Positions 3,558 through 51,193 of a stretch of 51,193 nt of DNA are shown here, piece after piece (position 1 is the stretch's first letter; every line of letters starts with the position of its first letter). A program made the translations under genes and the position numbers. The notes below the pieces were generated by a model. It worked only from the letters and a program-made list of their open reading frames with translations. It had not been told where the DNA came from and made no database searches. Source of the DNA: a virus; IMG/VR virus record IMGVR_UViG_3300020196_000058, positions 1 through 51,193 of that record. The stretch is one strand, 5' to 3'.

Positions 3558-4402
3558 AAGAACAATTCGATAATCAAGTAGCGGCTTCTTTTTTGTTGTG
3601 GTTTGATCATACTTTATTAGATAAAGGTCAAGCTTATTACGACGTTACGACTTCTTTTCCATTAAATTCTTCCTATTTTAATGGACTTTATTCATATAAT
3701 GGGCCTTTTCAAGGTTTAGTTTATGATACTTCTATTGATGATGCGATAGTAATGACAGGAGTTACCATAAACGGTAATTATTATAATATCGGAGAAGGCC
3801 CTTTAAGCGGTATAAATTATACTAAAGGACAAGTATATTTATCTTCAGGAAATTTAGATGTTACTGGAAATTATTCAGTAAAACAATTCAATGTTCTCCT
3901 CACTTCTATACCAGAAGAAGTATTATTATTTGAAACTCAATACGTTCAAAGAAACAAAACCCCAACGGGCTCTTTAAAAGATTCTTTAGCACAAAATGTA
4001 ATCACATTCCCTGTAATTTTTATTAAAAATAATGGAAGCACAAATACACCCGCCGCTTTTGGAGGAACAGACGAAACGAGAATTGATTATAGAGCTATCG
4101 TGGTAGCTGATTCTCAATATAATTTAGATGCCGTATGCTCTTTGTTTAGAGATAGAAATTATGATAATTTTCCACTGATTAATAGTAATTATAATCCATT
4201 TAACGTACTTGGAAGTTTTAAAAGTGGTATTCCTTTTAATTATGATACTGTTACCGCAGGTAAAGATTATTGTATGATAGACAGCGTTTCCGTATCAAAG
4301 ATACCAAGTGTAAGAGATAGAGAGAATAATATCAATTCAAGTTCTTACTATGGATTAATTGATTTTGAAGTTATTAAGTTTAGAGAACCGAGAAAAACAT
4401 AA
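3554..4402 (+). CDS. Putative tail terminator protein
   Basis: 282 residues, beta-rich, with no domain I can name with confidence. It starts with a helix (VAASFLLWFDHTLLDKG) and contains alternating strand segments (NYSVKQFNVLLTSIPEE, YRAIVVADSQYNLD). Its position directly upstream of the two tail-tube genes is where the tail terminator, which caps the tube at its head-proximal end, is normally encoded. It is longer than most terminators (about 130-200 residues), perhaps because of an added N-terminal domain. A general neck or minor tail role is the alternative. Confidence 0.35.
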   Translation: MKEQFDNQVAASFLLWFDHTLLDKGQAYYDVTTSFPLNSSYFNGLYSYNGPFQGLVYDTSIDDAIVMTGVTINGNYYNIGEGPLSGINYTKGQVYLSSGNLDVTGNYSVKQFNVLLTSIPEEVLLFETQYVQRNKTPTGSLKDSLAQNVITFPVIFIKNNGSTNTPAAFGGTDETRIDYRAIVVADSQYNLDAVCSLFRDRNYDNFPLINSNYNPFNVLGSFKSGIPFNYDTVTAGKDYCMIDSVSVSKIPSVRDRENNINSSSYYGLIDFEVIKFREPRKT

Positions 4403-12500: not shown

Positions 12501-15500
12501 ACGCAAATGTTCCAAGTCAAAGAAGAGCAGATCAAAGAGCTGCCGCCATAAGTCCATTCAGTGGAAGTCTTACTGAATTTATTGATGAAGAGTATTCCAG
12601 AATCATGATGGAAAAACCTAAAGCATATTCAAAAGGTTTTATCCCTAATTTTGCGGCTACTAAATTTGATAAATTTAAACTAAATGATCGCTTAGTAATG
12701 GCTTATGGAAAGAAAAATGATCCTGAATCCATAGCAAAATATTTAGTTAACATTGGAAGAATAGATCCTATTTTAGATAAAGCTACTAAAAATCCAATTT
12801 TAGATTCTAAAGGTTCACCAGTAGTAAAATTTTCAGGATTTACAACTAAGTATGGCGCTGATGGATATCAAAACTTAATAAGACATTTTAGAAGTGATGG
12901 AGTTTTAGATTACAGAATTGTTCCATCAAATGATGAAAAGAGCATTACTTCTTATTTGAGACAAATTAGATTATCTGATTTTTCTAAAGGGTATATTCCT
13001 AATTTTGCAGATAACAATTTAAAAGATTTATTAACTGAAGCAAAATTAAAATCTTTTTCTTCGCCAGAAGATTTATATTTATGGTTGACACGTTTAAGTC
13101 AAGAAAAAGGTTTACGAATTAAAAGAGGATCATCTAGAATTGGAATTGCTCTTGATGATAAAATGTTTTTAAAAATTGCAGCTAACAAAGCTGGAATTGC
13201 TCAAAATTTTGTTGAAAATAGAATTTTAAATGATCGATCTGCTAGAGAAAGATATTCTGATATTTTACCAGAAATTTTTGCTTCAGATAATAGAAAAAAT
13301 CTTTGGAGTATCACAGAAAGATTAAACGATGTCCAAGAGTTAGATGGTTTCAAAAGACCAAGACCATCTGAACAATTACTTGGCAAACCCGCTAGCCATT
13401 TCATGCTTTTTTCGCCTTATTCAGATCTTGAAAACCAAATATTAAAATTTGGAGAGGAATACGATATTGACGTGTCTGATTTTTTTGGAGGTAGAAATAT
13501 TGGTTTTACTAGAACAAGTAGTCCAAAACTTAAATTAATGGATTTAGGTTTCACCGAAAGAATCGCTAAAGCTTTTTATCGACAAGGAAGAATTCCAGAA
13601 CTCGGACGCTTTGATAAAGGTTTTATTCCTAATTTTAGTTCTTCTGATGCTTTACAACAGTATTTAAATAATTTTGATTCTCAAACTGTTTCTGAATTTT
13701 CAAACACTAATATCCGTGGGGGTCGCGGTATGAGTGTATTGTCAGCCAGAGTAAAATTTGTTAAAGATCTATTAAACATTAATCCAGATCTTAAAGCAAA
13801 AGAATTAGTTCAAATTTTAAACGAAAGAAGAACTAAAGGAGTTAATGTCAATTTTACAGAAAAATCTATACCATTTGGGCCAGAAGAAGCAAGAAGATTA
13901 ATCGCTAAAGTTCGAAACAGTAGAACTAAATCAATTGATTATTTAGGTAGACCATCTGTTTCTGGAATTTCTCCAGAAGATTTTAGTAGTGGCTTTATTC
14001 CTAATTTTGCTTTTTCCGACTTAGGAACTGGAGCTGTAATACAAAATGATAATAATTATGGAGGACCCTCTGGACGAGCAAGATATTTAACTTTTTCAAA
14101 ACTTAAAAAAGAAGGAATATTTAAAAAATATATTAATTATTTCAAAACCTACGAGTCAGTTGACAAATATATTAACAGGGATGCGCCGAAATATTTTAGA
14201 AATTTTTTTATGCCTAATGGCTCAGTTCCAAAAGATAAAGAACTAGAAGTTTTTGGTAGAAAATTAACAAATGACGAGTCTGATTTTTTTAATGATTTTT
14301 TTTCAAATGGTGATTTTATAGGAACTAGTAGATATCTCAAAGCATTTTTTCCCAAAAATGATCGTTTTTATAAAGATCCATTGGAAAAATCTATTTCTGA
14401 TAGACTTCCGCGTACTCAAGATTATTTTATTAATGAAGATATACAAGACAGATTTAAGAAAACTTTGATTTTTCCTGATGTAAGAAAATCTTACTTAGCT
14501 TTCTTAAAAGAACGTTCTATTCGTCGAGGAATTTTTGTAGATAGTGATCCAGCAATTTTTTTTGAATTTGCTTTGCAAAATGATAAATTGAAAGATGTAG
14601 CTCAAAAAATTAGATCAATGGCACCGCCAATTACTTCTAAAGATTTACAAAAACAAGCCGAGTTCTTTGATAGTCCAGAAAAAGTAGATAAAGATTTGCT
14701 TACTCAGCTTGCGGAATTTGATAGAGATGAAAAATTTTCTTTTTCTGTATTTGGAAGTGTTAAAAAAGCCCCTTTTAATAAAAAGTCTACCGATAATATA
14801 CTTTTTCAATCTTTATATGAAAATTTTAAAGATATAGATGCAGGAGAAGTATTTAATATTCCTAGTTATATTCTACATTCAGGAATACGAGGTTTAGATA
14901 GAGCTATTTATCTAGAATCTAGAAGCCCGCTTGAAGCTTTTAAAGAAGTGACGAATAAGAAAGTGTTAAATTCTAATAAAGAAGTTGTTGATTATTTAAA
15001 ATGGCGAATTTCTAGACCTTCTCCAAGCGAACCAATTGATTTATCTCCTGAAATAACAAAATTTCTTTTTAAAAACGACTATGGTTTATTAAAAAAATCA
15101 CGTTTTGTAAAATATGATTTGGAAAATAGAAAAATAATTGATTTTTTAGTTAAAAATAAAAATTCCATACAGTTTGAAAAAACATTTGCTGAATATGGAG
15201 CAGCAGGACAACAAAGACAATACACATATATAGATTTAATAAATAATTTAACAGAAGCTGATTTACCAAATGGAGATAAAACTTCTCTCCCAAAAGCTTT
15301 TGAAAGTGTTAAAACTAGATTATCAGAACAAGCTAGACAACAAATCGAGAAAAAAATCGCTGTTTCTAATAGGACTTTTCCAATAATACCTCACTTAAGT
15401 AAAGAAACGGATAGAGTAAAAATATTAAAAAATGAAAAATCTTTATATGAAGAAGGAAATAGAATGGATCATTGCGTTGCTGGCTATGGAGACGCATGTT

Positions 15501-18500
15501 CTAATATTGATACGAAAACAGGATTACCTAAAAGCTTAATCGTTTCAACTGGAACGGCAACTGCAGAATTAAATCCTCAAAGAAAAAGAATAATACCAAA
15601 TTCTGATTTTAACACTAGGCAAAATCGCGCTGAAATAAGAAATTTTATTAAAAGCCTCAAGTATCACGCTACTTCTTTAGGCAAATCCAGCACCACCACC
15701 GCAATGGCGGAGTTGATGGCTGAAAGGAGCATGATAGCGGAGGAGGTAAGATTAAATACAGTTAAATCTTATTTGCAATTGAGAAAAGCAAGAAAAGGCC
15801 CACCTTTATATTCAATAGATGCTTATCAAATAAAAGGAATTAGAAATAAAAATCCATCGCAAGAAGATTTAGAGTTGTTTCGCGATTTTGTAAGAAAAAA
15901 TGGGTTGCAGCCAAACTTTGCTTCTGGTTTTGTTCCTAATTTTGCGAAATTTAAAACTTTTTTAGGAAAAGGATTTATTCCAAATTTCAATGCCGTTCGA
16001 GAAGCTATTAATAGAGAAATGGACGCTGGCTTTTCAGCTTCCCAAGTTAAAATCGGACAAAGTAATTCTTTAAAAACTTCATTTAATCCTCAAGGACTTG
16101 GAGTTTATAATACGGTCCAAGAACCCGGCGGTTTAAATCAGGGCATGGCATTTGCGCGTGAAGCCGGAATCAATCCTAAAACAAAAGGAATGAGTTCTGG
16201 ATTTGTACCAAATTTCGCAGAAGGAGGATTTGATAGATTTGATGTTACTTTAATTGCAGCGACTTTAATTGGGTTAAATACTCAAATTCGAAGTGTTATT
16301 GACGCTTTTAAAAACATTAAAGAATCTGTAAAAGCAGTTAACTCTGCTTTAGCAGAAGATGTAAAAGGGATTAGAAAATCAGCTGCAGAAAGAATAAATG
16401 AATTAAATAGTCAACTTAAAGCTGAGAAAACTGTTAGAAATCAAAGTATTGATGCTGCAAAACAAAATATTTCTGATTTAAAAAAGCAAAGAAAAACAGA
16501 GAAGGCTGCTCTTGATGCTTCTACTAAATTACGTGCAGGTCTTGGTCTTGGCCCTGATCCAGCGGAAAATACTAAATATTTAAGTTCATCTCGCGCAATA
16601 GGAAAACAGATAAGGCAACAAGAACAGTTAATAAAAAATGAAAATCTAGCAATACAAACTTCAACTGCGGATTTTGTAACTAAATCTAAAGAAATTGGCG
16701 CAAAATCAAAAATATTAGAATCTGAAAAAATTGCCGAAGCAGCATCGAAAACCACTACAAAAGCGAAAGCTGATACTTTAATTAAAAATGCAGGGTTCGG
16801 GGTTGGTTTGATTGGCGCGGGAGTCGCTAATATAGCTGAACAATTTATCCCTCAACAAAATTTTCAAGCTAGAGCATTAACTTCTGGAGTGGGAGACGTA
16901 TTCTCTTATGCTGGAACAGGAGCGGCTTTTGGTCCAGCAGGAGCAGCTGCTGGAGCGCTTTTGGGAATTGGTATTGCTGCTAAAAAAGTTGTTGATTCTA
17001 ATTTAGAAGAATATATTTATAAAATTGGTAAATCTATAGATTTAATCAGAGATAAAACTAATACTTTTGCTAATGCATCTCAAGGTTATTCATCTTCATT
17101 AGAGCAATTAAAAACAGCATTAAATGATCCTAATGCTAGACCAGATGCTTTAATTAGATTTCAAAATTTAATTCAAGAATCATTAGGACAAATTCCTGAT
17201 GAGTTTAGACAAAAAGTTTTAGCGGCGGGATCTGATTTAACAAAAATAGCAGAAGCTATTTCTGATGTTAATAAAGAATTAGGTAGATCACAGCAAAATT
17301 TAGAATCAGTAAGTAGCGTTTTGCAACTTATATCAAATAATAAAGGTTTCCTTTCTTATTTTGGATCCGCAATACAATTAAGATCTAATGATCAACAATT
17401 ATTAAACAGAAGTTTCACAAGAAATATTAATCAACAAGATTTAACAAAAAGATTTGGCAACCAACAAGATTTTGACAAATTTATTTCTCGATTATCAGGA
17501 GAATTGTTTACTACATATCAGTCAGGAAGAGGCTTGCAGGCTAACGCTCCTCAAGTATTAAATTTAAGAAATTTAAATAAAGTCGAAAGTTTACTTGGTT
17601 CTCAGGGTTTGCTAACTCCAGAGTTGGCATCAGCTTTTAAAAAAGCAGCTGAAAATTTTGATATCAAAGTTATTCGTGGACTTGTTTCATCTCTTCGCGA
17701 ACTCGGCATTACTGCTTTCGCAACCAAAGAAGAAGCCGCTAATTTAACTTCAATTCAAACAGATAATGTAAAAAAGAATAAACAAGCTGCCGAAGCATTA
17801 AGACTTTTAAATCAACAGTATACAAATTTAAATTTTCAACTTTCTCAACAAATTCAAATTGAACAAAATAGATCATCTGCTATTAGAGATATAAATAAGA
17901 TATTTTCTGAAGGAGTTATTAATGTTCAAAGATCAAGAGTTAAAAATTTATTAGAAGTATTTTCACCATTTATCACAGATCAACAACGCAATAATATCCA
18001 AGGTCAATTAGATTTAAATGAAATTACCACTCGTCAAAATTCACAAATTCGAGACGCATTAAATAAAACCTTAGATTCTTTTAATGAAAGTTTAACTTCT
18101 AAAATAAAAGAAATAACAGATCAAGCAATTGGAGTTACTGCTGATTTAAATAGAGAACCAAATCAAATTGTAAAAGATACCAATTTATTTATTAATAATC
18201 TTAGTAAATTAAGTAATTTAGCTAGTCAAGGCTTAGAGGCAGCAAGAGGCGGAGTAAACGTTTCTAACGTACGAGATAAATTAGCTCAAGAAATTCGAAG
18301 TACTGCTACTTTAACTGGAGGTCAACAAGAAGTTCTTATACAACAATTAGAGAAAGAATTTGCTTCTTTTCAAAATGAATTAGCGCGTATTAAAGCTCAA
18401 GGTGAGGTAGATTTGCTTTTACAAAAAAGTCAAGTTGATTTTCAAAGAAAAACTTACGAATTAAATCAACGTTTAAGTTTTGCAGGTGGTGGTCGAGCAC

Positions 18501-21457
18501 TAGCTTCAACAGGAAGATTAGGAGTTTCTGATCTTTATGATAGCATTGCTGATTTAGTTGGAGAACTTAGGCAAAATAATGCAATAGGTAATAGAGGTGA
18601 AAATATTTCCCTTTTGGGATCTAGTGTTTTTAAACTTTTAGATACCTTAACTAATCAATTACAGTTAAATAGAGCAACTACTTCTCCAATTCCTTTTGTT
18701 AGTCCAGAAAGCTTTAATAAAGCTGTATCTGATCAATTGCGTCCTTTAACTGCAATTTCTATCGCAGGAAGAACTAGTCAAATTAGAGAATCTCTTAATT
18801 TAGCTAGACAAACCACTGAAGCTCAAATCGGATCAATTGGAAAAGAAAGTCCATTAGCTTTAGCATTTAAAACTGCTAATGAAAATGCAGTAGGCACAGC
18901 GTTGTTACAGATTTCTTCAGAACTTAAATTACAAAATATTGGTACTTATTTAGATATTTTACAAGAAGAGGCAGGAATTTTAAATCAATTAACTAATGAG
19001 CAAACAAATTATTTAAAAGAACAAATTCCAAATTTAAATAAAAATTTTGCTAGTGTAATTCAAAAAAATGTAAAAGATCAATTAATTACAGTCAATAAAA
19101 CTCTAGAAAGTAAACTGACGGAATTAATTATTGCCACTAAAGAAGCTGATATAAATAAACAAATTAGAGATTTAATACCTTCTAATGTGCCATTTAATGA
19201 TAGAGAAAAGTTTTTACAAGAAATTAAAGATTTGCAAAAGGGGATTTTTAACTTAAATACAAATTTACCCCCAGAAACAGCGCAAGCATTTCAAAAAGTC
19301 ACGAATAATTTGTTGCAGCAAATTCCTCAAAGTACTTTTACTCCTAGTGGTGGATTTGGAGGTAATAATAACCAATCTAAAGATGTACAAATTAGTGATA
19401 TTGTTCGAAGATATTCTGGAGTAACCTCGGGTACTGTTGAATCAATACTTGAGCTACTTAATAAATTTCAAAAATTTTCAACTTCTGTAACTGCAAAACC
19501 TTTAGATAAAAAACAAAATATTGCTTATTTAGAAGGACTAATGGCAGATGCTTTAAAAAATTCTATATATTATGAAAAACTTTTAAATAATAATTCATCT
19601 AATCAACAGCCCGATAAACCAACAGATCCTAATGAAAGAATTCAAAGCTTAAGACAACAATTAAAAGGTTTAAATTTACAAACTGAATTTTATTTACAAT
19701 CCAATACAGAATTAGTCAAGTTACAAGAAGAAGTTAATGAAATTTTAGCTGAAGGAGTTCAAACTAAAGAACAACAAGAAAAACAATTACAAATTCAACT
19801 TAAAATTAGAAAGAAAGAATTAGACTTAGAACTTGCAACTACTAAAGATAGAGAAAAACTTTTATATGAAACCGCATACGGAAGAAATTTCTTTAGAGAA
19901 GAAAAACAAGCAGCTGCTGAAGCAAGAATTACAGCTGAAGCTCGACAAGGAAATGTACCAGTAGGTTCAATTGTTAGATCTGTTTTTGAATATGGACCAG
20001 CTGATGCCGCAAAAGATACGGGGGATACTTTAAAAATATTACTTACTGATTTTAAGACAGGAATTGCTGGCGCATTTAGCGAAGCTATAAAAGGAACTAA
20101 AACACTAAGAGAAGCTTTTTCTGATTTCTTTCAATCTTTATTAAATAGATTAACTGATAGAGCTACCGCTCAGTTGGTTGATACAGTTTTAGGAGCAGCA
20201 CAAAAAGGATTTTCCTCTTTCAATTTTGGAACAGGAAATGCATCGGCATCTTCAGATGGTGCATATACAGCAGGAGGAGTTAATACTGTAACCGGAGCTG
20301 GAGCTAAAAAATACGGCGGCTTAATTAAAGGTTATAACTTTGGCGGTTTAGTAACTGGTGGATCAGGATTTAGAGATGATGTGCCAGCTATGATGAGCGG
20401 CGGCGAATTTGTTATTAAACAAAGCTCTGTTAAAAAATATGGCGCTGATTTCTTAGATCAATTGAATAGTGGTCAAATTCAAACTGCTGCTGATGGTGGT
20501 TCATTCTCAGTTGGTCCAATGAGAAATGAATTTCTCTACAATGATCCAGAACGTCCAACTTCAGGGGAATATTCAGTTGATCCTCGTTTGTCTGCTTTTG
20601 CATTAACTGATGAAAATAATCCTCAAAATAAAATCAGAGAACAGCGTTTTGAGGAATTAGATAGATACTTACAGGATCGCGACCAGTATGAAAAAGATAG
20701 AAAAAAAGCCATCAGTGATTTTAATAAAAAAGTTCAAAGTGTTTTTAATCAAGCTTTAATTGCTGCAGCTATTCAAATTGTTGCATCTACTGCTGCCGGT
20801 TACGCTTCTAAAGGGGGTGGTGATACCAAAACTGAACCACCTGCGAAAAATGCTAAAGGAGGTCTTATTCCAAAATTTGCTTTTGGCGGTGCGGTTAGAA
20901 AACTAAAAGCGGGTGGAATGGCGGGCAAAGATAATATACCCGCATTGCTAATGGGCAATGAATATGTAATGAGCCCAGAAGCTACTAAATATTATGGTAC
21001 TCAATTAATGAGCGATTTGAATAAAGGAACCTTTAATAGAGTTGGTGCTCGCACAAGATTTGCTGAAGGAGGTTTAGTTGGTAGCGGTTCTTCTGTAAGT
21101 TATAGAGGTAATGCTGTAAATAATAACTTTGATGAATTGGTTGTTGCAATAAATACTTTAAATGAAAGTATAAGTAAGAGCAATGGTATTACTCAATCTG
21201 AAACTGGTGGTGTATCTCCAAACTTTAATGCTCAAGGGCAACTTGCTACAAGTTCTATTGTAAATAATATCTCTGTTAATGTTTCTTCTGGAAATGTTTC
21301 GGCTACTTCAGAAACAAATTCAGACAATAAAAATTCAAATCAAAATCAAAACTTGCAAAACAATCAAAAACTTGCTGAATTACTCAAAGGTAAAATTGTG
21401 GAAGTTATTGTCGAACAAAAGAGACCCGGAGGTTTATTGGCTAGCGTTAAGCCTTAA
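9518..21457 (+). CDS. Giant tape measure protein carrying an array of passenger domains
   Basis: 3,979 residues. Residues about 1-360 are the classical tape measure core (IIYNVEKAFSALISSTIEVE, ARGGAVIGNALKTIFTRIQ, LVGGVFQINILKAAL). Residues 553-2234 hold repeats of the motif GF[IVL]PNF[AS] separating globular segments: a PD-(D/E)XK nuclease-like domain (about 860-1010), a kinase-like domain (1165-1367) and a PcfJ-like domain (about 1960-2128). Residues about 2255-2400 are coiled-coil, 2425-2490 hydrophobic (possible membrane insertion), then mostly helix to two C-terminal units with GEFV / NEYV motifs. Fully extended helix (about 0.15 nm per residue) would give about 600 nm; without residues 559-2228, about 350 nm. 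Start follows AAGGAA. The TMP sets tail length and is ejected at infection; delivery of the passengers is inferred. Confidence 0.92.
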   Translation: MATSSGSITISATIDTSAAERDVLAALRRIERKSTLNLNTKNFSQPLGRITGQADEFQKSLEASNARVVAFGASAGIIYNVEKAFSALISSTIEVEKSLTDINVVLNSSTKTLTQFGDQLFNVAKQTGSSFNQVTEAAIEFSRQGLSLEDTLKRTRDALILTRLAGLDVVSSTEALTSAVNSFTKEALTTTDVVNKLAAVDAKFAVSSRDLSEAVKRVGSSASEAGVSFDELLGIVTSVQQTTARGGAVIGNALKTIFTRIQRPEVINDLRDFGVAVKDIEGNTLPIVQVLENLAKSFEDLNPVIRAQVGELVGGVFQINILKAALSDLSKENSIFQAATSASNKAIDDAIIKNNALNKSITALVNEASVNLVQFGKNIGNVSVGPGIKNLVGILNDSLNQINEKSGESVGAKIGSGLLKGITSFITGPGLILGSVVLGKLFGRFAGFTADATKNLLGLNSVSQQRGKLEESIKGILQSNPAIIGQLITGEKTRLQIEKEIRDVLIQQSSLAESIKNTSESFSKSFIASGMGVNASNLVVSNRLAPTRRTSKGFLPNFSDSMASQMTSEVSEATKLGAKKGVRARLSEGTIGGKKFILNTDEKEFVGVGRNGDSMVIPKYGGGMEKAIGMMKSGKMGSILGGSNSGMSFDGFIPNFAQDDEESGGFGPKQFRDYMRKIGKAYRVDKIINKQGKKVAGPLTWNLSDKNYFTNLKPQELEEFQTDLQGFQKEYNTSYLPTGYANYLRAITTQINREERKGNRSKSSIPVPEKLLDEPTINAAVLVATMETFKNFIQSNYPAESQQKQAISKKLRIINDQLNTATKLQKEGKPVPVQLSQRLERLKKFEKLYQKQEGIVSQVPAKAFGAKYEDFALKYLKNSAYPDIKSAKEIGLFGTGGEETTDVDAVDTVKRAFFEFKAGGIEIDKTNKKFKNVRSRPENWPLLLGVKFSDVFDQIKGPWQDILVSNNLRDPIYKFKGNKLLRLPSEGGTQDKRLYANVPSQRRADQRAAAISPFSGSLTEFIDEEYSRIMMEKPKAYSKGFIPNFAATKFDKFKLNDRLVMAYGKKNDPESIAKYLVNIGRIDPILDKATKNPILDSKGSPVVKFSGFTTKYGADGYQNLIRHFRSDGVLDYRIVPSNDEKSITSYLRQIRLSDFSKGYIPNFADNNLKDLLTEAKLKSFSSPEDLYLWLTRLSQEKGLRIKRGSSRIGIALDDKMFLKIAANKAGIAQNFVENRILNDRSARERYSDILPEIFASDNRKNLWSITERLNDVQELDGFKRPRPSEQLLGKPASHFMLFSPYSDLENQILKFGEEYDIDVSDFFGGRNIGFTRTSSPKLKLMDLGFTERIAKAFYRQGRIPELGRFDKGFIPNFSSSDALQQYLNNFDSQTVSEFSNTNIRGGRGMSVLSARVKFVKDLLNINPDLKAKELVQILNERRTKGVNVNFTEKSIPFGPEEARRLIAKVRNSRTKSIDYLGRPSVSGISPEDFSSGFIPNFAFSDLGTGAVIQNDNNYGGPSGRARYLTFSKLKKEGIFKKYINYFKTYESVDKYINRDAPKYFRNFFMPNGSVPKDKELEVFGRKLTNDESDFFNDFFSNGDFIGTSRYLKAFFPKNDRFYKDPLEKSISDRLPRTQDYFINEDIQDRFKKTLIFPDVRKSYLAFLKERSIRRGIFVDSDPAIFFEFALQNDKLKDVAQKIRSMAPPITSKDLQKQAEFFDSPEKVDKDLLTQLAEFDRDEKFSFSVFGSVKKAPFNKKSTDNILFQSLYENFKDIDAGEVFNIPSYILHSGIRGLDRAIYLESRSPLEAFKEVTNKKVLNSNKEVVDYLKWRISRPSPSEPIDLSPEITKFLFKNDYGLLKKSRFVKYDLENRKIIDFLVKNKNSIQFEKTFAEYGAAGQQRQYTYIDLINNLTEADLPNGDKTSLPKAFESVKTRLSEQARQQIEKKIAVSNRTFPIIPHLSKETDRVKILKNEKSLYEEGNRMDHCVAGYGDACSNIDTKTGLPKSLIVSTGTATAELNPQRKRIIPNSDFNTRQNRAEIRNFIKSLKYHATSLGKSSTTTAMAELMAERSMIAEEVRLNTVKSYLQLRKARKGPPLYSIDAYQIKGIRNKNPSQEDLELFRDFVRKNGLQPNFASGFVPNFAKFKTFLGKGFIPNFNAVREAINREMDAGFSASQVKIGQSNSLKTSFNPQGLGVYNTVQEPGGLNQGMAFAREAGINPKTKGMSSGFVPNFAEGGFDRFDVTLIAATLIGLNTQIRSVIDAFKNIKESVKAVNSALAEDVKGIRKSAAERINELNSQLKAEKTVRNQSIDAAKQNISDLKKQRKTEKAALDASTKLRAGLGLGPDPAENTKYLSSSRAIGKQIRQQEQLIKNENLAIQTSTADFVTKSKEIGAKSKILESEKIAEAASKTTTKAKADTLIKNAGFGVGLIGAGVANIAEQFIPQQNFQARALTSGVGDVFSYAGTGAAFGPAGAAAGALLGIGIAAKKVVDSNLEEYIYKIGKSIDLIRDKTNTFANASQGYSSSLEQLKTALNDPNARPDALIRFQNLIQESLGQIPDEFRQKVLAAGSDLTKIAEAISDVNKELGRSQQNLESVSSVLQLISNNKGFLSYFGSAIQLRSNDQQLLNRSFTRNINQQDLTKRFGNQQDFDKFISRLSGELFTTYQSGRGLQANAPQVLNLRNLNKVESLLGSQGLLTPELASAFKKAAENFDIKVIRGLVSSLRELGITAFATKEEAANLTSIQTDNVKKNKQAAEALRLLNQQYTNLNFQLSQQIQIEQNRSSAIRDINKIFSEGVINVQRSRVKNLLEVFSPFITDQQRNNIQGQLDLNEITTRQNSQIRDALNKTLDSFNESLTSKIKEITDQAIGVTADLNREPNQIVKDTNLFINNLSKLSNLASQGLEAARGGVNVSNVRDKLAQEIRSTATLTGGQQEVLIQQLEKEFASFQNELARIKAQGEVDLLLQKSQVDFQRKTYELNQRLSFAGGGRALASTGRLGVSDLYDSIADLVGELRQNNAIGNRGENISLLGSSVFKLLDTLTNQLQLNRATTSPIPFVSPESFNKAVSDQLRPLTAISIAGRTSQIRESLNLARQTTEAQIGSIGKESPLALAFKTANENAVGTALLQISSELKLQNIGTYLDILQEEAGILNQLTNEQTNYLKEQIPNLNKNFASVIQKNVKDQLITVNKTLESKLTELIIATKEADINKQIRDLIPSNVPFNDREKFLQEIKDLQKGIFNLNTNLPPETAQAFQKVTNNLLQQIPQSTFTPSGGFGGNNNQSKDVQISDIVRRYSGVTSGTVESILELLNKFQKFSTSVTAKPLDKKQNIAYLEGLMADALKNSIYYEKLLNNNSSNQQPDKPTDPNERIQSLRQQLKGLNLQTEFYLQSNTELVKLQEEVNEILAEGVQTKEQQEKQLQIQLKIRKKELDLELATTKDREKLLYETAYGRNFFREEKQAAAEARITAEARQGNVPVGSIVRSVFEYGPADAAKDTGDTLKILLTDFKTGIAGAFSEAIKGTKTLREAFSDFFQSLLNRLTDRATAQLVDTVLGAAQKGFSSFNFGTGNASASSDGAYTAGGVNTVTGAGAKKYGGLIKGYNFGGLVTGGSGFRDDVPAMMSGGEFVIKQSSVKKYGADFLDQLNSGQIQTAADGGSFSVGPMRNEFLYNDPERPTSGEYSVDPRLSAFALTDENNPQNKIREQRFEELDRYLQDRDQYEKDRKKAISDFNKKVQSVFNQALIAAAIQIVASTAAGYASKGGGDTKTEPPAKNAKGGLIPKFAFGGAVRKLKAGGMAGKDNIPALLMGNEYVMSPEATKYYGTQLMSDLNKGTFNRVGARTRFAEGGLVGSGSSVSYRGNAVNNNFDELVVAINTLNESISKSNGITQSETGGVSPNFNAQGQLATSSIVNNISVNVSSGNVSATSETNSDNKNSNQNQNLQNNQKLAELLKGKIVEVIVEQKRPGGLLASVKP
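12095..12547 (+). other. Embedded PD-(D/E)XK nuclease-like domain in the tape measure protein
   Basis: TMP residues about 860-1010, in the segment between the motif copies at 651 and 1040. The order of candidate catalytic residues fits the restriction-endonuclease fold: E869 in AKYEDFALKYL, D902 and D904 in TTDVDAVD, then E915-x-K917 in FFEFKAGG. A strand-turn-strand with Asp followed after about 11 residues by ExK is the core signature. Family assignment is by motif only; the flanking residues 658-860 are helical and unassigned. Confidence 0.55.
13010..13618 (+). other. Embedded protein-kinase-like domain in the tape measure protein
   Basis: TMP residues 1165-1367, bounded exactly by motif copies at 1158 and 1368. 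Kinase-fold features in order: a lysine in a beta strand (K1219 in MFLKIA), a helix-C-type glutamate (E1233 in IAQNFVEN), an Asn (N1327) and a DFG-like DLGF at 1342-1345. No clear HRD catalytic loop is visible, so it may be a pseudokinase or a divergent phosphotransferase. Confidence 0.5.
15395..15901 (+). other. Embedded PcfJ-like domain in the tape measure protein
   Basis: TMP residues about 1960-2128, ending at the motif GLQPNFA. It has the PcfJ-family pattern: an acidic-Gly lead-in (LYEEGNRMDHCVAGYGD, with H1985-C1986), a strand TGTATAEL, and a later strand AYQIKGIRNKNPS. About 80 residues appear inserted between the last two strands. PcfJ proteins are known from conjugative elements and phages; their biochemical role is not established. 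Confidence 0.5.
20342..21028 (+). repeat. Two C-terminal GG..D.(V/I)PA.(M/L)..(G/N)E(F/Y)V units in the tape measure protein
   Basis: Residues about 3609-3652 and 3790-3837 share the pattern GGxV-(x)n-GxxDxxPAxxxGxExVxxxxxxKYxGxxxxxxLNxG. Such units are common at TMP C-termini, which face the head-distal end of the tail. The linker before the second unit also carries GLIPKFA, a relative of the GFIPNFA motif. Confidence 0.65.
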
Positions 21458-44409: not shown

Positions 44410-46317
44410 TTACTTAAGGTCAAAAGCTATTTTATCTTTACCGTTGTGAATGTAATTTAATATTTTTTGAGTTCCAATATATGGAAGAAATGCTATTTCA
44501 AAATATCCATTATGATCTCCTCTTCCCTCTAGCCATAATAGATTATCCATTTGAGGTATATATTCTATTATTCTATGAATGAAAGGATTTCCTTTCAGGA
44601 TGGAAAAATTTTCTTTTTTTGTAGCAAAGTATAAATTATGATTAGGATATGTTTCTTTAATTGATTCAAGTAATGCGGTTGACAAAAATACATCGCCAAT
44701 GCTTTCTGGCATGATAAAGAGTATTCTTTTACCTTTGTCATTAGGATCTAAAATTTCTTCAAAATCAATTTTTTTATTTTTTTGATTTTCTTGTTGAGCT
44801 ACTTGTCTGAAATATTTTTCAATATTTTCCTCACTGTCTCCTTCGGAGAGTCTTTTCATCCAATGCTTATGACCATCATCTTTTTGATCTACTGAGGTCA
44901 TTTTTAATATATTATGATACAGATAAATCAACCATTGCGAATTATCTTTAATATCAGGAATAACTGCGTCTGGATTCTTTTCTTCTTCTTTTAAAGAAAA
45001 ATCATAAGAAGTAAAAGGCACATTATCTATAAAATTTTCAAAGACTTTCCCTAATACTTCAATAGAGTAATTTTCGATTGTCCATTTTCTTGCTTTTCTT
45101 CCTATTTCTCTTCTTTCTGCTTCTGACATTCTATAGACTTTAAGAAGCTGCTTTGCTATTGAAGATGGGTATGTGGAAGCTTTTCTGAATTGAGTCCCAT
45201 GTTCTCTGTATTCAGACCATTCTAAAGGAATAGACATAGCGTTGGGAACACACATGTCTTCTCCGCAGCTATAATTCGTTACAAGAGTTACGAGTTCACA
45301 ATATTTAGCTTCTTGAATTGGAATTTCTTGACCCCCTGATGTAAATGGATGACAATAAACATCCATTAAATTGTAGATTTCACATAATTGCTTTTCAGAA
45401 ACTCCATTGCTAGGATTAGTTGTTGAGCAGGTTTTCTCAGTATTGCAAACTCCGCATTTTAATTCCTGCCCCTTGAATGAATTAACGAAGTAGTTTTTGC
45501 ATTTATTGCATAAATAAGTAGTTAAAATATCTTCTCTAGAAACATTGTATTCATCAGCTAGTTTAAAAATATCCCAGCCTTCGCTCCAATGCGTATGCAA
45601 AAGTAACTTAGCATTTTTTACTTCTGGATTATTTTTAACAAAATCTCTAAAACCTTCAATTAAATTAGGAACAGATTTTCTTAACTGATTTCTAAAAACA
45701 AATCCTACTATAAATGAATCTTGAAGATTATACTTTTTCCTTAATTCATTTCTTTTTTCAATTCCTAAATAGTTAAAATTTGAATAGTTAACTGGTCCAT
45801 GTACTGTTTTAGCATTAGATACGCCTATCTTATGCATTTCTTTAGTAGCAAATCCACTCCAGATCCAATATTCAGAGGAATTTTTTGCCTGTTTTATAGC
45901 TTCATCATAAATAGGCAACGAATCTAAGGTAACCCACAATAAAGAAGTGATATTCTTATACCACTTTTTATTATAGTATTGACCAAAAGCCCAAGGGTCT
46001 TGAGCTCCAATCCAGAGATCGGGTTTTTCTGATTTAATTACTTCATCTATATAATAGGATCCATAAGAAACATCTCTTGCTAACGATGGATCTGAATTTA
46101 TTCTATTGATTTCAGAGGGATCAGTAGGAATACAGCCCAATGTTTTCCAAGGAGTTTTGGAAAGCAAAGGGCTGTTGGTATGGGTGCCGCAGCAATAATG
46201 CACTATTTCATATTTATTAGTGCTGTATAAATATGATATTAGCTCTTTCGCTGCTCTACCAAAGCCGGTTTTTGCAAGAGACCAATCTGTTTGGATGACT
46301 ATTTTTTTCTTTCGCAT
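44410..46317 (-). CDS. Glycosyltransferase (GT-B, GT4-like) with zinc ribbon, fused to the N-terminal half of a GT9-like enzyme
   Basis: 635 residues. Residues about 1-440 are a GT-B fold glycosyltransferase: IVIQTDWSLAKTGFGRAAKE, FRNQLRKSVPNLIEGF, LLLHTHWSEGWD, and GGQEIPIQEAKYC (about 325-337), the ExxxE-type donor site of GT4 enzymes. A four-cysteine zinc ribbon (CNKC and CGVC, about residues 269-291) is inserted before the donor site. Residues about 525-635 are the N-terminal Rossmann domain of a GT9 heptosyltransferase (RILFIMPESIGDVFLSTALL), cut off by a TAA just where the second domain starts in the next ORF. It begins at a TAATG overlap with the ssDNA-binding candidate. Confidence 0.75.
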   Translation of the reverse strand: MRKKKIVIQTDWSLAKTGFGRAAKELISYLYSTNKYEIVHYCCGTHTNSPLLSKTPWKTLGCIPTDPSEINRINSDPSLARDVSYGSYYIDEVIKSEKPDLWIGAQDPWAFGQYYNKKWYKNITSLLWVTLDSLPIYDEAIKQAKNSSEYWIWSGFATKEMHKIGVSNAKTVHGPVNYSNFNYLGIEKRNELRKKYNLQDSFIVGFVFRNQLRKSVPNLIEGFRDFVKNNPEVKNAKLLLHTHWSEGWDIFKLADEYNVSREDILTTYLCNKCKNYFVNSFKGQELKCGVCNTEKTCSTTNPSNGVSEKQLCEIYNLMDVYCHPFTSGGQEIPIQEAKYCELVTLVTNYSCGEDMCVPNAMSIPLEWSEYREHGTQFRKASTYPSSIAKQLLKVYRMSEAERREIGRKARKWTIENYSIEVLGKVFENFIDNVPFTSYDFSLKEEEKNPDAVIPDIKDNSQWLIYLYHNILKMTSVDQKDDGHKHWMKRLSEGDSEENIEKYFRQVAQQENQKNKKIDFEEILDPNDKGKRILFIMPESIGDVFLSTALLESIKETYPNHNLYFATKKENFSILKGNPFIHRIIEYIPQMDNLLWLEGRGDHNGYFEIAFLPYIGTQKILNYIHNGKDKIAFDLK

Positions 46318-46892
46318 TAAAAAATGAGCTCTTCAGCCTGAGCTTCGGCCTCAGATTGATTTTGAGTAATTTGAACTTTATTATAAATTGGCTTTTTATC
46401 TGCAGTGGGCTCCGCTCCATCAGTAGACTCTTTTTCAGTTTCGATCTTAGTAAATGATTCTGAAATAAATCTAAGCAAAAACTGCTTGACAAGAATTGCC
46501 TCCGCAAAAGAAAAACCAATTAAAAAACTATTCTTGTTTACCGTATCTCCTTTACTCTCTTTTGTTGCATTAAATGAGTATCCAATCTGCTTCCCATCTC
46601 TTACATAGGGGCAAAACTTTCCCATTGAGTTACCATTTTTAGATGTGTGATAGTAGCTATACTCCGTATTCCTATCAATAGAATCAATAATTCCAGCGGC
46701 TTCAGTTGTAGTAAACTTGACTACGCCAGACTTTTCTGGATTCTTGGCGTTTTCTCTAAAAGATCCAACATTTCTAGCCTCATTCCAAGAATGCTGCTTA
46801 ATGAAGTTGACAAATAAAGAAGCCCCTTTCGCTTGAAAGGAGCATGCAGTACCGGTGATTTTCTTATTTCCTTTATAAAATTGAAGATTCAT
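46317..46892 (-). CDS. Putative single-stranded DNA-binding protein
   Basis: 191 residues from the ATG at 46892; the frame extends to a TTG at 46928, but GGAG about 12 bases before the ATG favours the shorter form. A compact alpha/beta N-terminal domain (LQFYKGNKKITGTACSFQ, FVNFIKQHSWNE, GVVKFTTTEAAGIIDSIDRN, YSYYHTS, GYSFNATKE) resembles Whirly/PC4-type ssDNA-binding folds in strand order. An acidic, unstructured tail follows and ends EAEAQAEELIF. Acidic tails ending in Phe are typical of SSBs, where they recruit replication proteins. It lies directly after the polymerase gene. The family is not firmly identified. Confidence 0.45.
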   Translation of the reverse strand: MNLQFYKGNKKITGTACSFQAKGASLFVNFIKQHSWNEARNVGSFRENAKNPEKSGVVKFTTTEAAGIIDSIDRNTEYSYYHTSKNGNSMGKFCPYVRDGKQIGYSFNATKESKGDTVNKNSFLIGFSFAEAILVKQFLLRFISESFTKIETEKESTDGAEPTADKKPIYNKVQITQNQSEAEAQAEELIF

Positions 46893-46924
46893 CTGGATTA
46901 TATTCTCCAGAAAACTTCGTTTTA

Positions 46925-49513
46925 TCAAGTATTTTTGTCTGCTTTTAGTTGAGAAAGTTTTGTGTAAACTTTATGGGTTTGAATAGCTACAGTTTTCGCA
47001 AAAACTGAGTCAGTAAATTTTTGACCAATTACGATAACAATATCTTCTTCTTCTGGAACTTTATTATTTAAAGACTGCATTAGGTCAATATTTTCTGAAA
47101 AAACCATTGTGTTGATGCTAGCAGTCTCATCCGAGATTTGCATTTTAAAATATCTCGTTTTCTTTTCTCTAGAAACACCCATCTTGCATTCTTTAACTAC
47201 TCCAATGAATGCTACATAGTCTTTTTCTGGAAATCTCTCGATGTCTTTTATAAAGACTAAATCGTCTTTTTTGCTTATAAATACATCTCTCAGTTTATTT
47301 TTAACACTGTATCCAATAATTGAATTTTCATAAAACCAATTAGCAAAACTTTCTGATTTACTATTTAGCTCATAAATCTTTTTGTATGGATCAGCTTTTT
47401 TCCTTAATGTATCAAGTCTAGACTCTTTTATATAAAGTTTACCTTTAGCATCTTTAGCTTGAGTTAAATGAATAACTATCTTTACTAAATCATATTCAAA
47501 CTGTTCAGCAAATAATTTTGCGTTGACTTTTTCTTTTTCAGTAAGAAGATTCCATAACTGAGCTTCATAGACTAATTTACTTCTAGACTGCTTAAAGTCT
47601 CCATCTAAAGCTCCTGCCTGAATAAGAGCACACAAAACGCCTATGTTCAAACTTACTTGAGATGCTGTTTCAAAAATATCAAATTTGTTTTTAAATTCGC
47701 CTCTGAATTGATTTACAGCAGTTATGGTTTTCTCACTAATTCCTTTTACAGATAGAAGCCCAAATCGAATATCATTATTTTCTATAGAGAATTCTTCTTT
47801 TGATTTTAATAAGTGAGGAGGAAGAAGTTTAATGTTAAAATAAGCTAATTCTTTTTCAATTTTAGAAATTTCTCCAATAGGATCTGGCTCATGCTTGCTC
47901 ATCTTGAGCAAAGACAAAAAGAATTGTTGAGGATACTTGAACTTTAAGTAAATAGAAATAGCGGCCAATGCTGCATATGCAACTGAATGAGATTTATTAA
48001 ATTGATAATTAGCTGAATCATTTGCAATTCTCCAAAGGATTTCGCCAATTTTAGGATCAAGTTTTTGTTGGGAGATTTTATCTTTAATTTTTTGCTCCCA
48101 TTCTTTCATTTCATCAACTTTCTTTTTGCCAACGCAGCGGCGGACAATTTCTGCTTCATCAAGAGAAAAGCCCACTTTGCTAACCATCTTCATTAATTGC
48201 TCTTGATAAAGACATACACCTCCAGTAACGCCAAGAATATCGTCAAAAAAAGGATGAATGCTTTCGTAATGATCGTTATTAGTGTAGTTCGCATATTGAT
48301 CTATAAATTGAAGCGCACCGGGGCGAGCCAAAGCTAGAACACCGCTTAATTGCTCTAAATTTTTTGGCTTTACTTTTTGGCAAACTTTGAAATTTGTTTC
48401 TGCTTCAATTTGAAATAGCCCATGAGGATTTCTCAATTCTTGAAGCTTTTGATAAATAAAATTATCATTAACATCAATATCCTCATATTTAATACCTAAA
48501 GACTTACATACATCATCTACAACAGAAACTCCTCTTAATCCAAGAAGATCAAGTTTAACGTTGTACGCAGTTATATTGTTCATGTCATAACTTGATACAA
48601 CTTGTTTGTCAGAAGAAAGTTCTGTTGGACAAGATTGTTCTAGTTCTGAGTGAGAAAGTAGTAATCCAGATGGATGAACTCCTTTATTTTTAATTAAGTT
48701 TTGTAGTTTTAAAGCTATCTTGTAAACTTCTGTGTTTTCTTCTGTCCATTTTGCAAATTTTTCGGATTCAACAACAGCTTCTTCAAGACTTCTTACTTGT
48801 CCGAAGAGTTTAGGAATGAATGAAGACACATCATTCATTTCGGCTTCCTGCTTTTCAGCTACTGTCTTCCCCGCTTCTTTTATGCAGAGTTTGGAACTTA
48901 AAGTATTAAGTGTTAAAATTTTGGAAGTTTTACCCTTAAATTTTTCTTCAAGATAGTTAATTACTTTAGATCTATTATAATAGCAAATATCAAGGTCTAC
49001 ATCAGGAAACAAAGAGCCATCAAAATAGGTAATACCATCAATAATAGTCTTTTTTGCTCTTGCTTTTGAAATAAATCTTTCAAAGAACAAGTCGTATTTG
49101 ATTGGATCAATTTTAGTAACATCAATTAAAAACAAAATTAATGATCCTGCACAAGATCCTCTTCCGGGGCCAGTTGGAATATTTGTTTCTCTGCAATAAT
49201 TTACAACATCCCAAATCAAAACGATATAATCAATAAATTCAAGTTCTGTAAGAATGTCTAATTCATATCTAGCTCTATCGATATATTTTTTTTGAATTTC
49301 AGAACCTTTAGGTAGATTTAATTTTTTAAATCCTTCTCTTGCTAGTTCTCTTAAAAATTCAAAATTAGAAGCTGAACTTGATAGATTAAGTTTAGTCTTA
49401 TGCTTTTCTTCAATATCGAACACAGGCATTCGAAGCCCATGTAATCCTAAATCATATTTCTGAAATGACTCGATGAAGTTTAAATTGCTATTTGAAATTT
49501 CAGCTTGTTCCAT
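46925..49513 (-). CDS. dnaE: Family C DNA polymerase (DnaE-like alpha subunit), lacking the PHP domain
   Basis: 862 residues. Core motifs are intact: TGPGRGSCAGSLILF (about 112-126), catalytic D171 and D173 in FPDVDLD, and the third Asp D322 in KLDLLGL. The fingers and thumb region follows (PHGLFQIEAETNF, ARPGALQFI, GGVCLYQEQLMKM, NKSHSVAYA), then an OB-fold near the C-terminus (FIGVVKECKMGVSREKK, QISDETASINTMVFSE). The N-terminal PHP domain is absent; it is encoded separately two genes upstream, with an exonuclease gene in between. The start at 49513 overlaps the exonuclease ORF by 34 bp. It is the replicative polymerase of the phage. Confidence 0.9.
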   Translation of the reverse strand: MEQAEISNSNLNFIESFQKYDLGLHGLRMPVFDIEEKHKTKLNLSSSASNFEFLRELAREGFKKLNLPKGSEIQKKYIDRARYELDILTELEFIDYIVLIWDVVNYCRETNIPTGPGRGSCAGSLILFLIDVTKIDPIKYDLFFERFISKARAKKTIIDGITYFDGSLFPDVDLDICYYNRSKVINYLEEKFKGKTSKILTLNTLSSKLCIKEAGKTVAEKQEAEMNDVSSFIPKLFGQVRSLEEAVVESEKFAKWTEENTEVYKIALKLQNLIKNKGVHPSGLLLSHSELEQSCPTELSSDKQVVSSYDMNNITAYNVKLDLLGLRGVSVVDDVCKSLGIKYEDIDVNDNFIYQKLQELRNPHGLFQIEAETNFKVCQKVKPKNLEQLSGVLALARPGALQFIDQYANYTNNDHYESIHPFFDDILGVTGGVCLYQEQLMKMVSKVGFSLDEAEIVRRCVGKKKVDEMKEWEQKIKDKISQQKLDPKIGEILWRIANDSANYQFNKSHSVAYAALAAISIYLKFKYPQQFFLSLLKMSKHEPDPIGEISKIEKELAYFNIKLLPPHLLKSKEEFSIENNDIRFGLLSVKGISEKTITAVNQFRGEFKNKFDIFETASQVSLNIGVLCALIQAGALDGDFKQSRSKLVYEAQLWNLLTEKEKVNAKLFAEQFEYDLVKIVIHLTQAKDAKGKLYIKESRLDTLRKKADPYKKIYELNSKSESFANWFYENSIIGYSVKNKLRDVFISKKDDLVFIKDIERFPEKDYVAFIGVVKECKMGVSREKKTRYFKMQISDETASINTMVFSENIDLMQSLNNKVPEEEDIVIVIGQKFTDSVFAKTVAIQTHKVYTKLSQLKADKNT

Positions 49514-50118
49514 ATTTTAATATTTAGATGAAGATCGTTTAAAGCGTCGTGAAGAGTTTCGTAATTATGATCTATATTATATTCTTTACCAAGACTAGTT
49601 AAATTAGTTTTAATCCCTTTTCTTCTTTCATTTACGATTTTATATTGATATTCAATCAAAGATAAGTCTGATGAATAAGGAATGCCATATTTTATACCTT
49701 TAGCAATACAGTTAGTGTCGATAATTTTTTCAATTAAATGCTGCCAAGGCGCATTATATAATTGGTAAAATTCTTTAATAAGATAAATATCAAAGTTTAG
49801 GACGTTATGTCCGACTATGTAATCACAATTCTCAAGCCATTCTTTTATTGCTACAAAAGCTTCAGAAGAATGAATTGCTATTCTGGCATACTTATAAGGA
49901 TCAAATCTTGTTATTGCTGCAGCTTCTTTGCCTACCTGAATTGGCTTATCCCATTTAATGTATATATTTTTAGAGCCTAAAATTTCTTGACCTTTGACTT
50001 TTATCATGCCGCATTGCCAAGGTCTATTATTAATAAAATTAAGGCATAAATTTTCTGTTTCTAAATCGATAAATGTATAGACTTTGTCTTTATCGAATCT
50101 AAGTAAATTTTCCATCAT
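49480..50118 (-). CDS. DEDDh 3'-5' exonuclease (DnaQ/epsilon-like)
   Basis: 212 residues with all DEDDh residues: D18 and E20 in TFIDLETENL, D110 in GHNVLNFDIYL, and H190 and D195 in LHDALNDLHL. This is the proofreading exonuclease family of replicative polymerases (DnaQ, and the exonuclease domain of PolC). The start overlaps the PHP ORF stop (ATGATGG), and the end overlaps the polymerase start by 34 bp. An alternative start is the second ATG at 50115. Its place between the PHP and polymerase ORFs points to joint action as proofreader; a C-terminal clamp-binding or polymerase-binding motif is not evident. Confidence 0.9.
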   Translation of the reverse strand: MMENLLRFDKDKVYTFIDLETENLCLNFINNRPWQCGMIKVKGQEILGSKNIYIKWDKPIQVGKEAAAITRFDPYKYARIAIHSSEAFVAIKEWLENCDYIVGHNVLNFDIYLIKEFYQLYNAPWQHLIEKIIDTNCIAKGIKYGIPYSSDLSLIEYQYKIVNERRKGIKTNLTSLGKEYNIDHNYETLHDALNDLHLNIKIWNKLKFQIAI

Positions 50119-50897
50119 CGCGAATTCACCTCTTTCCAGCTTTCGAAGCTAAATTCATTACTACCCATATGTTCAAGATTTGGTTTACTTAAAGTTGTTC
50201 TATTATTAATGCATCTAAAAGTAAGATATGATTTAAAATCTTCTTTTTTATTATAGTAGATGCTTTTTGCTAGGATTCGTTTATTTGGATCTTTGCAAAA
50301 GTTTAAAATTTTCTTTTCTACTATTTTATCAAAAGGAAGATTGTTATTTTCAATAATAAATGTAGGTTTAGTAAATGCAAATTCTGGACAGCAAATAGAA
50401 TAAGTCATTACATTTTTGAATATAAACGAATCATAAAATGGAATACATAGTGTTAAATTATCTTCATTCCAGAATTGAGCCAGTTTATTTTCATCTATTC
50501 TTGGAACATAATAAAATCCATTTGTTGAAGCAATAGTATAAATTTTGATTAGATTTTTATAACCTTCGCCGTTCTTAGCAAAAATAATTATTTTGCTAGA
50601 CTTGCTGATTGATTCTTCTGATTTATCTTCTATATTTGGACAAAGTTCCAATCTTAGACCATAAAAAAATGGAACCTTAATTGATGCGAAATTTTTAAAC
50701 GCATCCAAAAAAGAAGACATATTTTCTTCAACTAAGAAAGCGCGTTTTAAATTATTGTCTTTAACCAAGTCGATTATAGAAATTGATCCATCTTGGCCTG
50801 AAGTTCCCGCTTTATCAAGAGTTAATATGGATTTGCCTATACTATAATGACTCTTAAAAAAGGGTAAAATCTTACTTCCATCTGGGGCATCCGTCAT
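50115..50897 (-). CDS. Detached, degenerate PHP domain of the DnaE-like polymerase
   Basis: 260 residues. Order of features matches the PHP domain of DnaE: an early SHYSIGKSILTLDKAG where LHTHSEYS is expected, FFYGLRLEL (for GxE), KIIIFAKNGEGYKNLIKI, FYYVPRIDEN, and a C-terminal IYYNKKEDFKSYLTFRCINN, which corresponds to the DnaE segment before the palm. The HxH pair, the TDH motif and most other metal ligands are replaced, so it is probably inactive and structural. In one-piece DnaE the polymerase follows directly; here an exonuclease gene intervenes. It overlaps the upstream ORF by 26 bp. Confidence 0.75.
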   Translation of the reverse strand: MTDAPDGSKILPFFKSHYSIGKSILTLDKAGTSGQDGSISIIDLVKDNNLKRAFLVEENMSSFLDAFKNFASIKVPFFYGLRLELCPNIEDKSEESISKSSKIIIFAKNGEGYKNLIKIYTIASTNGFYYVPRIDENKLAQFWNEDNLTLCIPFYDSFIFKNVMTYSICCPEFAFTKPTFIIENNNLPFDKIVEKKILNFCKDPNKRILAKSIYYNKKEDFKSYLTFRCINNRTTLSKPNLEHMGSNEFSFESWKEVNSR

Positions 50898-51193
50898 ATT
50901 TAAATTTTTTTACAATGTGAGATTCATTAATTTTTGAATTTTTTGCTTCTTCCAAAGTTAAATAGGTCTTAAGAAGGTTTCCTTCTATATCATAGACTCC
51001 ATAAAAAAACAAGGGATTTTTAAAGGGGCATACCCATTTTCCAGCTTCGCAAAGCCATTTATTTTTAGGTGAATCTCCAGCGTAGTTTTCTTTAGCGTCT
51101 TTTTCAGAAAAGTTTACAATTTTATCATAAACATATTTTAAAGCATATTCAAATCCGCTAAGTTGATCATCTGTAAATTCTACTGGCTGAACC
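50872..51193 (-). CDS. Uncharacterised protein, C-terminal part (partial at window edge)
   Basis: Open from the right edge on the minus strand (first whole codon at 51192), giving the last 106 residues up to a TAA at 50872. The visible part has a helix (DQLSGFEYALKYVYDKIVNF), a Cys pair (WLCEAGKWVC), FFYGVYDIEGNLLKTYLTL and an end DGCPRWK with another Cys. The three cysteines could help bind a metal, but no family is recognised. It overlaps the PHP ORF start by 26 bp, so it is probably part of the same replication operon. The start lies outside the window. Confidence 0.55.
   Translation of the reverse strand, partial: VQPVEFTDDQLSGFEYALKYVYDKIVNFSEKDAKENYAGDSPKNKWLCEAGKWVCPFKNPLFFYGVYDIEGNLLKTYLTLEEAKNSKINESHIVKKFKYDGCPRWK

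Follow-up and report, generated by a model that had tools for sequence, protein, structure and literature searches.

Barros et al. described the members of the C family of DNA polymerases as all holding their PHP and polymerase domains in a single polypeptide (PMC3666897). In E. coli Pol III, loss of the PHP metal ligands accompanies the use of a separate exonuclease, and PHP continues to stabilise the polymerase although it is inactive (PMC3666897). Here, we analysed a 51,193-base viral record from IMG/VR (IMGVR_UViG_3300020196_000058; the whole stretch is called the window hereafter) in which a PHP protein, a DEDDh exonuclease and a DnaE-type polymerase are encoded by three consecutive genes, and we compared it with the related viral loci that form one clade with it. 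In the open-access library that was searched, no paper was found that describes the clade or a PHP-exonuclease-polymerase operon, and searches aimed at a separate PHP in phage replicases did not reveal the clade either.

Several known systems resemble the clade in part. The E. coli Pol III core also combines a DnaE polymerase and a degenerate PHP with a DEDDh proofreader on a separate chain; however, its PHP and polymerase form one chain, the gene for the proofreader, epsilon, lies elsewhere, and epsilon ends in a tail that binds alpha, which the clade exonuclease lacks. PolC of Gram-positive bacteria keeps PHP, exonuclease and polymerase together in the same order and has a modestly similar exonuclease, but it is one chain with the exonuclease nested in PHP, and both the polymerase type and the OB position differ. 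Bacteroidetes DnaE1 is likewise DnaE-type with a linked DEDDh exonuclease, but that exonuclease is fused at the PHP N-terminus (PMC3919608); in our comparison it scored low against the clade exonuclease profile. In Pbunavirus E217, Wifcevirus WFH and Luteibacter phage Pluto, an exonuclease gene adjoins a DnaE-like polymerase gene with an overlap of a few bases, whereas PHP and polymerase are fused and the exonuclease, only distantly similar, lies upstream of PHP. The minimal split Pol III alpha of jumbo-phage group 2.2 also distributes a C-family polymerase over separate genes, but the cut falls within the catalytic module, PHP is missing and a B-family polymerase is present alongside (PMC7824862). 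Finally, the cluster EF Microbacterium phages Kate and Annapurna and Arthrobacter phage Wollypog have one gene for PHP and another for a DnaE polymerase, with the cut close to the border at which it lies in the clade. Unlike the clade, these phages belong to a separate tree lineage and have no exonuclease between the two genes; the Kate PHP keeps its ligand motifs, and in Wollypog an HNH endonuclease separates the PHP and polymerase genes (L135:3501-7377). The cluster EF genes have been reported only as two genes for DnaE-like alpha subunits (PMC13080520).

Results

The PHP and polymerase genes tile a continuous DnaE

The three open reading frames (ORFs) and the two overlaps proposed in the initial annotation were all confirmed. 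Lengths are in amino acids (aa).

50115..50897, minus strand: PHP gene, 260 aa (Pfam PHP PF02811, 3.7e-10; DnaE N-terminus best in NCBIfam and PDB)
50115..50118, minus strand: overlap of the PHP and exonuclease genes, 4 bp, ATGA stop/start (from the sequence)
49480..50118, minus strand: DEDDh 3'-5' exonuclease gene, 212 aa (RNase_T PF00929, 1.5e-9; PHROG_192 DNA polymerase exonuclease subunit, 3.7e-21)
49480..49513, minus strand: overlap of the exonuclease and polymerase genes, 34 bp (from the sequence)
46925..49513, minus strand: polymerase gene, 862 aa, with palm, fingers, helix-hairpin-helix and a weak C-terminal OB (Pfam DNA_pol3_alpha 5.5e-57, finger 4.8e-31, HHH_6 1.5e-15)

When the ORFs were aligned to PHROG_405, a full-length DnaE-like family of 1190 positions, PHP covered positions 65-284 and the polymerase covered positions 309-1089. 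The two ORFs tile a continuous DnaE with nothing lost or duplicated, which argues for fission of dnaE and not for a polymerase gene with an unrelated PHP neighbour. The junction lies between '..EFYFKTPEEM' and the following helix, near E. coli alpha residue 249, and the last PHP helix appears from the alignment to be carried by the first part of the polymerase ORF. The initial annotation had the PHP ORF ending where DnaE enters the palm; the cut is indeed near the end of PHP, but slightly before the PHP/palm border.

By its family matches, the polymerase is a DnaE-type enzyme of the C family and not a PolC. It matched the NCBIfam DnaE models NF004226 (446.6 bits) and TIGR00594 (434.9 bits; cutoff 434.35), while no PolC model in NCBIfam matched it. 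A profile of the clade polymerases scored 338 bits on Taq DnaE and 265-338 bits on DnaEs, against approximately 6 bits on a PolC polymerase core. The catalytic Asp residues D171, D173 and D322 were invariant in 12 sequences, and an OB match at residues 770-831, C-terminal to the helix-hairpin-helix, was weak (E 0.011, under the Pfam cutoff). The polymerase phylogeny proposed as a check in the initial annotation placed the clade within the DnaE-type enzymes: in a maximum-likelihood tree it formed a single branch (SH-aLRT 100) on a long stem. Its nearest relative is unsure because a quick tree method was used and several branches are long. Kate grouped away from the clade with Mycobacterium phage Thoth, which has a fused gene, indicating that the Kate cut is independent of the cut in the clade.

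The three-gene layout is conserved across the clade

Profile searches found PHP, exonuclease and polymerase as separate ORFs in this order in all 95 loci of a first set that had upstream sequence (the window, 92 standard loci and two with an intein-interrupted polymerase), and likewise in 75 of 75 loci of a second set. Another 15 loci that were cut by contig ends were left out, and a few of the counted loci are near-copies of one another. As to intact or differently split relatives, a point raised in the initial annotation, no fused PHP-polymerase occurred among these approximately 170 viral loci, all of which extend far enough upstream, while in phages outside the clade the two are mostly fused. 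The single polypeptide taken as a criterion for DnaE-type members of the C family is thus absent here, PHP and polymerase being separate in all loci. The layout was kept in relatives with 84-89%, 57-63% and 48-52% polymerase identity, and another contig, of 70.6 kb (L002), carries a near-identical copy of the window locus.

In IMG/VR, at least 538 matches were confirmed for one query and 406 for another, two sets that may overlap. Contigs of the clade reach 211 kb, and a terminase-type match was obtained in four of the six contigs tested; we describe the clade as a large group of uncultured tailed phages from water. The large records have one polymerase each and never a second RNase_T-type exonuclease. 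A single scan of genome contigs found three clade loci (L103, L104 and L105) in metagenome-assembled bins, which were labelled Flavobacteriaceae, Woesebacteria and Halobacteriovorax; these are probably phage contigs binned with their hosts or by mistake. Against named phages, tblastn returned 14 weak matches with the PHP query and no match with the exonuclease query.

PHP has lost its metal ligands and the exonuclease has kept its active site

All nine PHP metal ligands (HHDHEH[C/H]DH) were replaced across the 24 clade members aligned, with HxH changed to FKSHYSIGK and similar sequences, GxE to GLR or GLK, and DxH to SIY. The PHP profile preferred DnaE (45 bits) to PolC (24 bits). PHP is under strong purifying selection, with a ratio of nonsynonymous to synonymous substitution rates (dN/dS) of 0.04-0.08, a rough value with synonymous sites near saturation in most pairs, and it was the fastest evolving of the three proteins in most pairs. 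The distances among PHP, exonuclease and polymerase were correlated (Mantel r 0.45-0.69; 0 of 2000 permutations), which supports co-inheritance of the three proteins.

In the exonuclease, the DEDDh residues D18, E20, D110, H190 and D195 were invariant in one set of 15 and in one of 45 sequences. The best PDB match of its profile was the exonuclease domain of T. maritima PolC (2.9e-7), and the profile scored 33, 22 and 19 bits on PolC exonucleases versus 12.5 bits on E. coli DnaQ. A stand-alone phage exonuclease scored as high as the PolC ones, and exonucleases adjoining phage DnaE genes showed a weaker likeness. The exonuclease of the window itself best matched an epsilon model, while that of L103, a deep member of the clade, best matched a PolC model (46 bits). 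On these profile scores, the family is a generic DEDDh one of ambiguous origin, and a residual PolC flavour is confined to the exonuclease.

Inserted genes, inteins and neighbouring genes

In some members, sugar-kinase and cupin-type genes lie between PHP and exonuclease (L009:3089-5389 and L008:4728-5090). Between exonuclease and polymerase, more than 60 loci (e.g. L034, L041 and L008) share a small conserved ORF (about 71 aa; MASLDDIYDMIQKLDDSNIEYLLIT...); this ORF is not in the window, and in L009 it lies downstream of the exonuclease gene at a distance of approximately 7.5 kb. A natural split intein was found in the polymerase of L028 (L028:6016-8974) at FNK|SHS, where about 80 aa of N-intein and a stop are followed by a new ORF beginning with the C-intein. 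The insertion site is three residues from the well-known site of the split DnaE intein of cyanobacteria. At the site used in L028, L021 (L021:6001-9542) has an N-intein and a NUMOD4/HNH endonuclease that ends in a stop, and a second, overlapping ORF carries the C-intein; its polymerase is less similar to that of the window in the first segment (73%) than in the rest (83%).

Two further genes flank the locus:

46317..46928, minus strand: next gene after the polymerase, with an acidic C-terminal tail ..EELIF (position kept in relatives)
50872..51192, minus strand: upstream nuclease gene, C-terminal part only, cut by the window end (complete L002 copy, 307 aa: PHROG_69 exonuclease, 6.2e-20)

The first is usually the 3' neighbour of the polymerase in relatives, where the tail is EDDLW-like. 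It had no family match in PHROG or Pfam, and its tail resembles SSB tails, so that it is possibly an SSB-like protein. Upstream in L002 (L002:36-4642), the order is a RecA/UvsX-like gene, a homing-endonuclease-like ORF, a small acidic ORF, DnaB helicase, primase, the PHROG exonuclease, which we read as PD-(D/E)XK type, and then PHP. Elsewhere in the window, two ORFs on opposite strands (9518-21457 and 30356-22980) are very long, at 3979 and 2458 aa.

Discussion

The DnaE of the clade is split, with an exonuclease gene lying between its two parts, and we consider it probable that the three chains reassemble as a replicase core. The capture of an exonuclease gene inside dnaE, one of two readings offered in the initial annotation, is the likeliest and right in outline. 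In this scheme, dnaE would have been divided near the end of its PHP domain and a DEDDh exonuclease gene placed in the cut, with the three genes translated separately from one operon. The PHP chain, predicted to be unable to bind metals, would dock non-covalently on the polymerase palm, serving as a structural scaffold and as the seat of the exonuclease; the exonuclease chain would proofread and the polymerase chain would carry out synthesis. Complex formation by the three chains, and the surfaces they would use, we infer from sequence as the most likely arrangement. Three observations weigh against the scheme. First, 0.3-2.3 kb of other genes lies between PHP and exonuclease in approximately 40 of 91 loci (the two genes are spaced by -11 to +6 bp in 51 loci and by 336-2300 bp in the other 40), and strict coupling is thus not required. 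Second, the exonuclease ends about 17 residues past motif III, while E. coli DnaQ continues for about 70; the C-terminal alpha-binding tail that marks a bona fide epsilon subunit in the Barros 2013 definition is absent. Third, a beta clamp was not found in the six large contigs searched. Large contigs gave no convincing clamp-loader match either.

More tentatively, PHP may have become a subunit in its own right, without catalysis and devoted to seating the proofreader, within a modular core whose parts evolve and could be exchanged separately. Such a core may represent an independent intermediate between DnaE with a separate epsilon and the all-in-one PolC.

As for the origin of the cut, a mobile endonuclease may have broken dnaE at the PHP border and later been replaced by the exonuclease gene, an account that is compatible with the three-chain core but that we regard as somewhat doubtful. 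Wollypog, in which the order is PHP gene, small ORF, NUMOD4/HNH endonuclease and polymerase gene, is likely a case of endonuclease-driven gene fission, and the related phage Kate is split without an endonuclease. HNH or homing endonucleases also occur in other phage C-family genes, and two clade members have a polymerase intein, one of them with an HNH endonuclease. However, no endonuclease was recognised at the junctions of PHP, exonuclease and polymerase, where the inserts identified were cupin and sugar-kinase genes and the small conserved ORF.

It is unlikely that the free PHP has ceased to serve the polymerase and taken on another role. Its frequent separation from the polymerase gene and its evolving fastest of the three in most pairs would fit such a change, but it is always upstream of the exonuclease and polymerase, is a homologue of precisely the N-terminal part of DnaE that the polymerase lacks, is under purifying selection and co-varies with the polymerase. 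Less probable again is the other reading of the initial annotation, an ancestral PolC with the exonuclease nested in PHP that fell into three genes; the type of the polymerase and the insertion point largely refute it. The profile scores of the exonuclease do favour PolC, including the 46 bits of L103, but a stand-alone phage exonuclease equals the PolC ones and the window exonuclease prefers the epsilon model. Moreover, the polymerase and PHP are both DnaE-type, the weak OB match sits C-terminally as in DnaE, and the PolC insertion point in PHP (after the '..GxEAY' strand) is uninterrupted, the exonuclease following nearly the whole PHP.

The 4-bp and 34-bp overlaps in the window could suggest ribosomal frameshifting into a fused PHP-exonuclease-polymerase, which we hold to be highly improbable: the exonuclease-to-polymerase distance in relatives is -34, -19, -4 or +1 to +287 bp, and at the same junctions gaps or up to 2.3 kb of extra genes are present in many of them. 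Spacing as variable as this speaks for separate translation rather than a recoded fusion, and the exonuclease ORF is preceded by a start codon and a ribosome-binding-like site (AGAGGTG, approximately 8 nt upstream of the ATGA overlap). A sequencing or assembly error that broke one gene, for which the initial annotation proposed a check of the junctions, is refuted by the split shared by approximately 170 loci from many metagenomes and by the near-identical L002 copy.

Separate PHP and polymerase genes also exist in the Microbacterium and Arthrobacter phages, which are independent cases; the clade is a variant in which an exonuclease gene lies between the two. At least two cuts have thus been made at the PHP/palm border, and gene order alone, with no fusion, can bring a proofreading exonuclease to a replicase. 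Descriptions of PHP have always placed it on the same chain as a C-family polymerase, and its structural role after loss of the nuclease is debated. A large phage clade with a ligand-less PHP as a protein of its own is a natural experiment on that role, in which the chain could be removed, added back or swapped in vitro.

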